From assembly GCA_024742285.1 (NCBI GenBank), contig JANSYR010000023.1:1-64000 (forward strand): DNA of 64,000 nucleotides, read 5' to 3'. The notes under the pieces were generated by a model that made no database searches, had not been told where the DNA came from, and worked only from the letters and a program-made list of their open reading frames with translations. This DNA is from a bacterium (GTDB lineage Bacteria; Myxococcota_A; UBA9160; UBA4427). Position numbers and translations under genes: made by a program. Positions 56,902 through 61,553 of this stretch are shown piece by piece (the first letter of the stretch is position 1; every line of letters begins with the position of its first letter).

Positions 56902-57978
56902 CTAGGCGGAGGTCAGCCGGTCGAGCGCCCAGCGGGCATGCTCGGCCAAGACGGGATCGGGGCTCTCCGCGTGGCGCTCGACCGCCGGACGCAGCGAACC
57001 GTCCCGGCTGTTGCCGGCCGCGACCAGGGCATTGCGAAGCAGGCCCGTGTGACCCGTTCGCTTGATGGCCGTCTTGTGCGCGTGTTCGCGGAAGCCGACC
57101 TCGTCGAGCTCCAGGAGCCAGCGCAGCGTCGGCGACTGCCAGGCCGAGCGCGGCGTGAGTCGCGCGCGCAGTCCCAGCGGATCCTCCGGCGCTTCCCGCG
57201 GCCGACTCTGGTTCCAGGGACAGACCGTCTGGCAGACGTCGCAGCCGAAGACGTGCTCTCCCTGCGCCTCGCGCAGGTGCGCCGGAATCGCGCCCCGCAG
57301 CTCGATCGTCGTGTACGAGAGGCAGCGCGTCGCATCGAGTACCCAGGGCTCGGGGAACGCGTCGGTCGGACACGCATCGAGACAGGCCCGGCACGTTCCG
57401 CAGTGATCGGGCTCCGGCGCATCGGGCGCGAGGGCGAGGTCCGTCAGGATCACGCCGAGCATCAGGTGGGACCCGCGCTCCGGATCGATCAGGCAGGTGT
57501 TCTTCCCGATCCAGCCGAGGCCGGCCTGGGCCGCCGCTGCGCGCTCGAGGATCGGTCCCGTGTCGACGTAGCTCCGGGAGACGACCCGGCGCTCGGCGAG
57601 CGACGGGAGCGCCGCCTCGAGGGCACGGAGCCGCTCGAGGAGGACGTCGTGGTAGTCGTCTCCGCCGGCGTAGCGGGCGATCGATCCGCGCGGACCCGGA
57701 TCATCGGCCTCGACCGCTTCCTCGCTCGGCAGCGCCAGCGCGGCGACGATCAACGACTCCGCCTCCGGAAGGACGCGCCGCGGATCGACGCGCTCGTCGA
57801 GCCGGCGCCCGATGTAGTCGAGCTCGCCGCCGTAGCCCTGCGCCCACCACTCCCGGACGAACCCGTTGTGCGGACCGGGCGCGGCGGCGGCGAAGCCGAC
57901 CGAATCCAGCCCGAGTACGAGCCCCACGCGCCGCACCGATTCCGCGAGCGAGCCTCCCTCCGACGGCCGTGCACTCAC
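56902..57978 (-). CDS. queG: epoxyqueuosine reductase
   Basis: A 358-residue QueG, the cobalamin-dependent last step of queuosine synthesis. SYVDTGPILERAAAAQAGLGWIGKN is the cobalamin/tRNA signature; two 4Fe-4S clusters are in CGTCRACLDACPTDAF and CDVCQTVCPWNQ. A C-terminal HEAT-like part (residues 285-355) binds tRNA. GTG start at 57978 overlaps the exosortase stop by 4 bases, an unusual neighbour. Confidence 0.95.
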   Translation of the reverse strand: MSARPSEGGSLAESVRRVGLVLGLDSVGFAAAAPGPHNGFVREWWAQGYGGELDYIGRRLDERVDPRRVLPEAESLIVAALALPSEEAVEADDPGPRGSIARYAGGDDYHDVLLERLRALEAALPSLAERRVVSRSYVDTGPILERAAAAQAGLGWIGKNTCLIDPERGSHLMLGVILTDLALAPDAPEPDHCGTCRACLDACPTDAFPEPWVLDATRCLSYTTIELRGAIPAHLREAQGEHVFGCDVCQTVCPWNQSRPREAPEDPLGLRARLTPRSAWQSPTLRWLLELDEVGFREHAHKTAIKRTGHTGLLRNALVAAGNSRDGSLRPAVERHAESPDPVLAEHARWALDRLTSA

Positions 57979-58817
57979 GACGCGACCGCGCCACGCGAGG
58001 GGGCGGCGGAGAGTCTGCGCAGCCCCTCGCCGACCGCCAGCAGGCAGACGCAGCCGAGCACGTAGGTCGCGACGCCCGCCCACTCGTGGAGCGGCCCTCG
58101 GGTCGCGAACGCCACGTCGACCTCGATCGCGAGGACCACGGTCAGGATCACGCGCAGCAGGTTGCCGGCGAGCGCGATCGGCACGACCGCGACGACGAGC
58201 GCGACCCGACGCCAGGCGACGGAGTCGGTGAAGTAGGCGATGAAGACGCCGATCGGGATCAGCGTCACGAGACTCGTGATCCCGCTGCAGGCATCCGCCA
58301 CGAAGAGGGTCTGATCGCCGGGCAGCGTCAGCACGTTGCCCTCGCGGAAGATCGCCACCCCGTTCATCTGGAGCAGCCGGACGGCGGCCGTCGAGACGAG
58401 GATCTGCAGCTCGACGATCAGCGGGTTCACCCAGGCGATCGGCAGCGGCACCATGAAGAGCAGATACGAGAGCGGGAAGCGCAGGGTCCGGACCCACTCG
58501 ACGCCGCGCAGCGCGAGCACCGCCACGACGACGGTCGCCACGAAGAGCAGCCCGAGCAGGCTCGCGTCGCCGAACCCGATCAAGCCGACGTAGAGAACGG
58601 CCAGGGCTCCCAGCGCGAGCAGTCCGCCGGGGACGGGCGCCGCCGGAAGCGCGGCCAGGCGAACCCGGTGGGCGGTGGCGGCCCACAGGGCGACGAAGGG
58701 CACGAGGTAGCCGTGGGAGGCGTACTCGACGCTGCTCCAGACCTCCGAGAGCGCCAGCAGGCCCGGCCCCCAGCCGACGAGCAGCAAGGCGACGATCGCC
58801 CACTCGCCGCGCGTCAT
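57975..58817 (-). CDS. stand-alone exosortase
   Basis: A 280-residue membrane protease/transpeptidase of the exosortase (Xrt/EpsH) family with about eight helices. The catalytic triad is seen: Cys in LFVADACSGITSLVTL, Arg in AGNLLRVILTVVLAIEV and His in GPLHEWAGVATYVLG. Such enzymes cut PEP-CTERM-type sorting signals on exported proteins, usually in cells making exopolysaccharide. No polysaccharide cluster or PEP-CTERM target is in the window. ATG at 58817 has GAGGTGGAC upstream. Confidence 0.88.
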   Translation of the reverse strand: MTRGEWAIVALLLVGWGPGLLALSEVWSSVEYASHGYLVPFVALWAATAHRVRLAALPAAPVPGGLLALGALAVLYVGLIGFGDASLLGLLFVATVVVAVLALRGVEWVRTLRFPLSYLLFMVPLPIAWVNPLIVELQILVSTAAVRLLQMNGVAIFREGNVLTLPGDQTLFVADACSGITSLVTLIPIGVFIAYFTDSVAWRRVALVVAVVPIALAGNLLRVILTVVLAIEVDVAFATRGPLHEWAGVATYVLGCVCLLAVGEGLRRLSAAPSRGAVAS

Positions 58818-59097
58818 GTCCACCTCGCGCGGGCCCGTCGCGAGCGCCGGCCCGGACCGCATCGTTGCCGCCGCACTGCCTGCCTCCCTCCCGGATTCAC
58901 CGGAGGCCACCCCGGGAACACGCCGGACGCGCGCCTCTCGAGTCGGTGCCCGTCCTGGGACATCGGGGGCCGCGCCCTTTGGATTGAGTCCGCTCGCAGC
59001 GGTCAAGTCCCATGTCAGCGCAACCGAAACGCAAACGAGCGAAGCCTGTGTGCTGCGCTCGACCGCGCCTCGCGCGCCTCCCGCTTTCGGAAGCCTC

Positions 59098-59946: not shown

Positions 59947-60039
59947 CTCCGGTATCCTGCTGATCCCACGGACCGGCGCAGCTCCTGCCCCCGAAGCGTG
60001 CGCGAGCACCTTCGAGTGATTCGTGAAGGATTGGAGGCC

Positions 60040-61059
60040 ATGCAGGACCGGCTCGTCTTCCTGATCGGTTCGCCGCGTTCGGGCTCGACGCTGCTCTCGC
60101 GCGTGCTCGGGGCCCACTCGGCGATCTTCGCCCCCGAAGAGCCGCACCTGATCACGCCTCTGGCCCACCTCGGCTACTACGACGCGGTCGAGGAAGCGCC
60201 CTACGACCCCGTGATCACGCGGACCGCGGCACGCGCGCTGGTCGCCGCGCTGCCGAACGGGGAGGCCGATTATCTCGAGGCATTGCGGTCCTATACGGAC
60301 AAGATCTACGGCGGCCTCTTCGAGAGCGCGGGGGACGCCTCGCTCCTCCTCGACAAGACCCCGGCCTACGCACTCTCCCTGGATTTCCTGGCACGGCTCT
60401 ACCCCCTGGCGAAGTTCATCGTCCTGACCCGCCACCCCGTCGCGGTCTGGTCCTCGTACGTCGACTCCTTCTTCGACGGCGACGATGCCGTGGCCCACGC
60501 GCACAACCCGCTGCTCGAGCGCTACGTCCCCGCGATCGCTCGTTTCCTCCGCGAGCAGCGCGTGCCCTACCACCGCGTCCAATACGAGAATCTGGTTCAG
60601 GAACCCGAGGAAAATGCCCGCCAGATCTGCGATTTCCTGGGAATCGAATTCGAGGCCGGCATGGTCGACTACGGCGCCGCCCCGAACGCCCGCGGCGAAT
60701 CGACCCGCGGCCTCGGGGACCCCACGAACGTCGCCCAGCAGAGCCGGCCGACGACCGACAGCCTCTCCAAGTGGGCGAAGGCCGCGACCGGCCAGCCCGA
60801 ACGGGTGGGCCTCTATCAGGAGATCGTGGCTCGCCTCGCCGACGAGGACCTCGAGACCTGGGGCCATCCCCGGGCCGACATCGTCCGCGAGCTCGAGGCC
60901 ATCGACCTGGCAGGCAAGCCCGCTCCCCGCCCCAGGCTCACCCGCTACGCCCTCGAGCGCCGGGTGCTCGTGGGGGTGCGCCGCCGGATCCGGCCGGAGA
61001 ATGGCCTCGGCCGGCTGGTGAAGAAGGTGCGCGAAGTCTGCGACGTCCTGCTGCGCTGA
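60040..61059 (+). CDS. PAPS-dependent sulfotransferase family protein
   Basis: A 339-residue sulfotransferase. The PAPS 5'-phosphosulfate loop is FLIGSPRSGSTLLSRVL at the N-terminus and the 3'-phosphate site is KFIVLTRHPVAVWSSYV; RVQYENLVQEPEENARQICDFLG is the typical later helix. The substrate could be a small molecule, lipid or peptide. ATG at 60040 preceded by GGAGG; a GTG at 59998 is an alternative. The gene for a PqqA-like peptide begins 148 bases after its stop in the same direction. Confidence 0.85.
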   Translation: MQDRLVFLIGSPRSGSTLLSRVLGAHSAIFAPEEPHLITPLAHLGYYDAVEEAPYDPVITRTAARALVAALPNGEADYLEALRSYTDKIYGGLFESAGDASLLLDKTPAYALSLDFLARLYPLAKFIVLTRHPVAVWSSYVDSFFDGDDAVAHAHNPLLERYVPAIARFLREQRVPYHRVQYENLVQEPEENARQICDFLGIEFEAGMVDYGAAPNARGESTRGLGDPTNVAQQSRPTTDSLSKWAKAATGQPERVGLYQEIVARLADEDLETWGHPRADIVRELEAIDLAGKPAPRPRLTRYALERRVLVGVRRRIRPENGLGRLVKKVREVCDVLLR

Positions 61060-61207
61060 GCGGGCGGCGGGCGGCATCGCGCCGGCAGCCTGACCGAATC
61101 CGCTCACGCGCCCCGCGCCCCCGGCCGATCAGGGGAGCGCCCACCGCGCACCGCCGTGGAAGACTCCACCTGCGGGGCGTGCGGGACCGACCGGGAGACT
61201 GCTATAC

Positions 61208-61372
61208 ATGGCGCCCATGGAAGAACGCATCATCCGACCCGCGACGAGCTTCGGCGCTGCCGAGCAGAACGACCAGCCCAAGCGCTTCGAGCGCCCCGCC
61301 GCCCAGGAGATCTCCCTGTGCTGCGAGATCTCGGCGTACGCGCCGGACGGCGACGACACCCCTCTTTTTTGA
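61208..61372 (+). CDS. PqqA-like ribosomal precursor peptide
   Basis: A 54-residue frame (ATG at 61208, with GGGAG about 9 bases upstream; ATG at 61217 also in frame; TGA at 61370). The C-terminal QEISLCCEISAYAPDGDD matches the core pattern of PqqA precursors (E-I-x-L-x-x-E-I-x-x-Y-A), with Glu40 and Tyr44 spaced as the Glu and Tyr that PqqE crosslinks. Most PqqA peptides are 22-30 residues; here a 30-residue polar N-terminal leader precedes. No pqqB, pqqC, pqqD or pqqE lies in the window, so it may be an orphan precursor served in trans or by another radical SAM system. Confidence 0.65.
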   Translation: MAPMEERIIRPATSFGAAEQNDQPKRFERPAAQEISLCCEISAYAPDGDDTPLF

Positions 61373-61513
61373 GGTGGGGATCCATTGTGCAGAGTTCGCC
61401 GCGAGGGTGAGCTCTGCGACGTTGTGGCGTCCTGGTTCGGGGCTGGGGTGCTAGGCACGAACGCGGTTGCTGGCGGTGTCCGGTGATCCGTTTCTTGCCA
61501 CCATGAAGACATC

Positions 61514-61553
61514 GAGGCGAGTTCCCTTTGAGGGGCTCGCCTCGTTTCGTTTG
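61514..61553 (+). terminator. intrinsic terminator after the PqqA-like gene
   Basis: Perfect 8-bp stem GAGGCGAG (61514-61521) with CTCGCCTC (61536-61543), 14-base loop, then GTTTCGTTT on the plus strand. It lies 142 bases after the peptide gene and 16 bases before the converging cvpA stop. Confidence 0.65.

Follow-up and report, generated by a model that had tools for sequence, protein, structure and literature searches.

A PqqA-like peptide encoded apart from pqqBCDE as the probable PQQ precursor in an uncultured order of Myxococcota

In the known pathway to PQQ the precursor peptide PqqA is presented by PqqD to PqqE, a Glu and a Tyr of the peptide are joined, a peptidase frees the joined pair and PqqC finishes the product (PMC2294125; PMC10906245; PMC12997753). 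The Glu and Tyr of the Glu-x3-Tyr motif form PQQ (PMC2294125), and the PqqA leader is placed on PqqD, while the C-terminal part, which contains Glu16 and Tyr20, is put at the barrel of PqqE (PMC10906245). PqqA of Pseudomonas fluorescens is 39 residues long (PMC2294125). In Methylosinus trichosporium OB3b pqqA is unlinked from pqqBCDE, was missed by gene prediction and gives a small independent transcript, reportedly highly expressed (PMC3615186), while members of the Methylophilaceae carry 3-12 copies of the gene (PMC4109929). Our literature search found no paper joining UBA9160 with pyrroloquinoline.

The peptide gene described here lies in a window of 64,000 nucleotides (assembly GCA_024742285.1, contig JANSYR010000023.1, positions 1 to 64,000), and its features are collected in Table 1. 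We consider it very probable that the peptide is PqqA, the PQQ precursor, supplied in trans by a gene that lies apart from pqqBCDE. Because of the precedent in M. trichosporium OB3b an unlinked PqqA is only modestly new; the earlier case concerned a single strain, whereas here the gene occupies a syntenic site across an order and has a probably leaderless promoter.

Table 1. Positions of the PqqA-like peptide gene, its parts and adjacent features in the window
Feature	Position	Strand	Remarks
Sulfotransfer_3 family protein	59998..61059	+	Pfam; syntenic neighbour, outside the pathway
Extended -10 promoter-like element, TGCTATACA	61200..61208	+	Would put the transcript start at or near ATG 61217 (leaderless)
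Alternative in-frame ATG	61208	+	Would give 54 aa
pqqA-like CDS	61217..61372	+	51 aa + stop, MEERIIRPATSFGAAEQNDQPKRFERPAAQEISLCCEISAYAPDGDDTPLF; translation, start kept in relatives, family alignment
N-terminal extension, residues 1-23	61217..61285	+	Variable across the order, 11-29 aa
PqqA-like segment, residues 24-51, FERPAAQEISLCCEISAYAPDGDDTPLF	61286..61369	+	Aromatic-x-x-Pro, Leu-x-Cys-Glu-x3-Tyr, acidic-PLF tail
Predicted PqqE cross-link pair, Glu37 (61325-61327) to Tyr41 (61337-61339)	61325..61339	+	27/27
Terminator-like hairpin	61513-61544	+	13 pairs, T-rich tail; ~140 nt downstream of the stop

An initial annotation, made from the letters of the window, had described a 54-residue frame at 61208-61372 (+) with a Glu-x3-Tyr pair and the motif LCCE, and the translated frame, MAPMEERIIRPATSFGAAEQNDQPKRFERPAAQEISLCCEISAYAPDGDDTPLF, is exactly that. 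The open reading frame stands but its start does not: the relatives begin at the ATG corresponding to 61217, and the one at 61208 overlaps the promoter-like element (TGCTATA). Glu-x3-Tyr within a short peptide, the hallmark of PqqA, is kept in all 27 family members. In the alignment of these 27 sequences the invariant columns of the PqqA-like segment are P27, L34, C36, E37 and Y41 (Pro 4, Leu 11, Cys 13, Glu 14 and Tyr 18 in core numbering), with P49 and L50 also listed as invariant; 25 members have W, Y or F as the first residue of the core, and the acidic tail of most members closes with PLF. The 28-residue core evolves under purifying selection, with a within-genus pN/pS of 0.18. What had been called a long leader is better read as an extension, because it is poorly conserved, varies in length and has a pN/pS of 0.57 over its first 12 residues.

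The sequence TGCTA was found 15-21 nt (nearly always 15-18) 5' of the ATG in 22 of 34 relatives, as against a mean of 0.33 and a maximum of 3 in shuffles, and a Shine-Dalgarno-like motif was found upstream in only two of the 34. The position of TGCTA and the rarity of the Shine-Dalgarno motif suggest an extended -10 promoter and a leaderless mRNA for the peptide gene. The good terminator reported immediately after the gene could not be upheld, as the T run at the stop codon sits in the loop of a hairpin and does not make a canonical terminator; the hairpin further downstream (Table 1) is the better candidate.

Profile searches with the curated models gave no match of either PF08042 or TIGR02107 to the window peptide, the outcome that the initial annotation had named as a refutation. 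TIGR02107 matched seven of 27 relatives, weakly (best E 0.014). For PqqA of this phylum, however, the cut-off seems a poor yardstick, because the pqqA gene linked to pqqDE in genome G013 falls short of it (18.2; cut-off 20) and locus L178, where pqqA adjoins pqqB, gives no match at all; the operon-linked genes of L086 and L178 are both below the cut-off. The miss at L178 indicates that annotation models may under-call pqqA in the phylum. When an HMM was built from seven PqqA sequences, the window peptide scored 14.6 bits while the best of 8,100 shuffles reached 10.3, and 17 of the 27 family members scored above this best shuffle. Conversely, an 18-column HMM made from the family scored the plasmid-borne PqqA sequences no higher than shuffles.

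The PqqA-like segment aligns without gaps and in the same register as annotated PqqA, sharing with the proteins of TIGR02107 and PF08042 an aromatic-x-x-Pro followed by Glu-x3-Tyr, and its acidic tail is like that of PqqA from S. meliloti and Thioclava. The doubled Cys and the acidic end had been singled out as extras. Since the annotated S. meliloti PqqA reads MAWHKPKFIEVSCAMEITRYAPADGDEPILF, a Cys near the Glu and an acidic tail are ordinary PqqA features, nothing exotic. What separates the orphan from the PqqA of the two models, which miss it, is mild: a site unlinked throughout the order, an N-terminal extension of variable length (11-29 aa) and an invariant Cys before the Glu. When the orphan profile was run against the whole phylum it gave five marginal matches outside the order, and four of them (L178, L179, L180 and L182) are short frames in the same register beside pqqB in other Myxococcota, where Ala rather than Cys precedes the Glu (AEIGAY); L180, which belongs to a different order of the class, is over the TIGR02107 cut-off. 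The operonic candidates of AEIGAY type adjoin pqqB at about 5330 (L178), 5743 (L179) and 5410 (L182). The fifth match, in G227, was rejected as it has no pqq genes nearby and TGA codons in frame.

The absence of pqqBCDE near the peptide, as initially annotated, holds locally but not for the genome. The peptide is on contig C23, outside any pqq operon, and PqqB, PqqC, PqqD and PqqE are all encoded in the source genome on two other contigs, with PqqE (480 bits) and PqqD (44 bits) on C9 and PqqB (401 bits) and PqqC (343 bits) on C16, each over its cut-off. The whole-genome search for pqqBCDE that the initial annotation had proposed thus found the full pathway, and no second PqqA was found. Four PQQ-dependent alcohol dehydrogenases (TIGR03075) were also over cut-off. 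About eight more quinoprotein-like proteins fall below the TIGR03075 cut-off, all matches together spanning C1, C2, C10, C12, C15 and C25, and PQQ-dependent or related enzymes may be numerous in the source genome.

Two PqqB-like proteins are encoded in this genome (L038, 12072-12965, -; L058, 554-2217, +). The full PqqB is beside PqqC, and on the other contig, beside pqqDE, is a divergent one which scores 194 bits, under the cut-off of 245, and has no counterpart of the Cys-rich NCNCPNC of the full protein. Three further genomes of the genus (G003, G004 and G005) have the divergent PqqB next to pqqE, with no pqqC at that site. A methyltransferase-like protein (L031, 298-1653, +) 33 kb from pqqDE carries a PqqD-like domain at its C terminus; this second PqqD-like domain (C9:75041) was considered in connection with a different RiPP system and rejected, as it does not look like a partner.

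The frame is conserved in relatives. Homologues were found in 28 of 61 relatives by single-sequence search and in about 40 of 80 genomes of the order (Myxococcota MAGs) by profile search, in some 28 genera and normally with one copy per genome. The Methylophilaceae have more copies, but there as here pqqA copy number is uncoupled from that of the enzyme genes. The two copies seen in G075 are identical and both at contig ends, and look like one gene assembled twice. A weak match in G054 (E 0.0085) was taken as chance, being partial and on a different contig from the sulfotransferase.

Presence of the peptide followed that of the PQQ enzymes. Among the 80 genomes 37 had both peptide and PqqE, three the peptide only, six PqqE only and 34 neither (Fisher p 9e-13), and counting by genus gave 26, 2, 2 and 14 in the same order (p 1e-7), although with related genomes, which are not independent samples, both p values make the association look stronger than it is. 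For PqqC the corresponding counts were 36, 4, 7 and 33. Within the order no linked pqqA was present in the 29 pqqE and 29 pqqC loci examined, scanned with about 1.5 kb of flanking sequence where the contig allowed and in longer regions, the one exception being G013. The operon does include pqqA in G188 and L180, which come from another order of the class.

G013 has a different pqq cluster, with its own pqqA beside pqqDE and a PqqE that resembles the S. meliloti enzyme (53%) more than that of the source genome (45%); the usual site of the orphan is syntenic in this genome and the orphan is absent from it. In G068, which is without PqqE and PqqC, the peptide copy has decayed to MNDNSSSVAGSGACASAAPGLGMIPPDCEITAHAPDGNDPLF (...PPDCEITAHAPDGNDPLF), in which His replaces the cross-link Tyr, a change seen in this genome only. 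The remaining exceptions are of several kinds. Four of the six genomes with PqqE and no orphan (G003, G004, G067 and G076) also have no neighbouring CvpA gene, so the peptide locus is probably missing from these assemblies. In G014 pqqBC is at a contig end. Two genomes count against the association, namely G075, where the peptide is intact and yet neither PqqE nor PqqC was found, and G078, where PqqE is present and the orphan was not found. G038 has two PqqC genes, on contigs C256 and C129 (L195, L196), one in the usual pqqB-C-E locus and the other encoding a protein about 70% identical to the PqqC of the source genome, suggesting that a segment with pqqC was transferred horizontally.

The adjacent sulfotransferase had been put forward as a possible tailoring enzyme, and in many relatives the gene is indeed directly upstream of the peptide and on the same strand, which speaks for a peptide sulfated, for example, at Tyr. 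The order-wide counts do not bear this out: 29 genomes had both genes, 11 the peptide only, 22 the sulfotransferase only and 18 neither (p 0.16), and pqqE and the sulfotransferase were not associated either (p 1). G013 has lost the orphan but keeps the sulfotransferase, the loci L236, L239 and L240 have the peptide without it, and the wider block is equally syntenic, comprising dCTP deaminase, GDPD, methyltransferase, QueG, exosortase, PilZ/cNMP, sulfotransferase, peptide, CvpA and ABC transporter genes. We conclude that the sulfotransferase is a syntenic neighbour and no partner of the peptide, and regard sulfation as highly improbable. The exosortase gene (EpsH family) of this block is at 57975-58976 (-) in the window, between QueG and the PilZ/cNMP-binding protein.

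A different RiPP on the PqqA scaffold, cross-linked by PqqE or another radical SAM enzyme to a product other than PQQ and further modified, for example at Cys, would agree with the Cys before the Glu being invariant in 27 of 27 members, with the nearly invariant PLF tail, and with a precursor that is N-terminally extended and unlinked from pqqBCDE. We give it little credence, a shade more than sulfation, since the full PQQ pathway including PqqC is present and no other pqqA was found, so that without the peptide the pathway would lack a substrate. The linked pqqA of G013 likewise has a Cys before the Glu (CGCEINCY), and the annotated PqqA of S. meliloti has a YAPxDGDEPxLF tail. No better chance is given to the idea that the invariant Cys beside the cross-linked Glu and the PLF tail point to a modified PQQ-like cofactor, or to maturation regulated through the Cys, rather than to standard PQQ. 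That the frame is a relic of pqqA and no longer used would fit the failure of the curated models to find it, but it is the least likely explanation of all given the purifying selection on the core, the conserved promoter-like element and the fact that decay is visible only where the pathway is missing (G068). Supply of PqqA in trans, which the initial annotation had also proposed, is the reading favoured by the co-occurrence with PqqE and PqqC, the absence of any other pqqA and the natural cases of loss (G068) and replacement (G013).

As PqqA, the 51-residue peptide would be translated from a leaderless mRNA transcribed from the TGCTATA element. By analogy with the described system PqqD would bind the segment before Glu37, around residues 24-36, and PqqE would form a carbon-carbon bond between Glu37 and Tyr41. 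Once a peptidase had released the Glu-Tyr unit, PqqB and PqqC would complete PQQ, presumably for use by the quinoprotein dehydrogenases of the cell. During the evolution of the order pqqA would have left a pqqABCDE operon and settled beside a housekeeping block, and from the linkage data one relocation within the order is the simplest account.

The orphan would thus fill the PQQ pathway in a large uncultured order of Myxococcota which otherwise seems to be without a gene for the substrate, and it shows that whole clades escape the curated PqqA models. The orphan further offers a clean evolutionary case in which pqqA left its operon and kept one site across most of an order, with the orphan dropped when a new cluster carrying its own pqqA arrived and the reactive Tyr lost where the pathway was gone.
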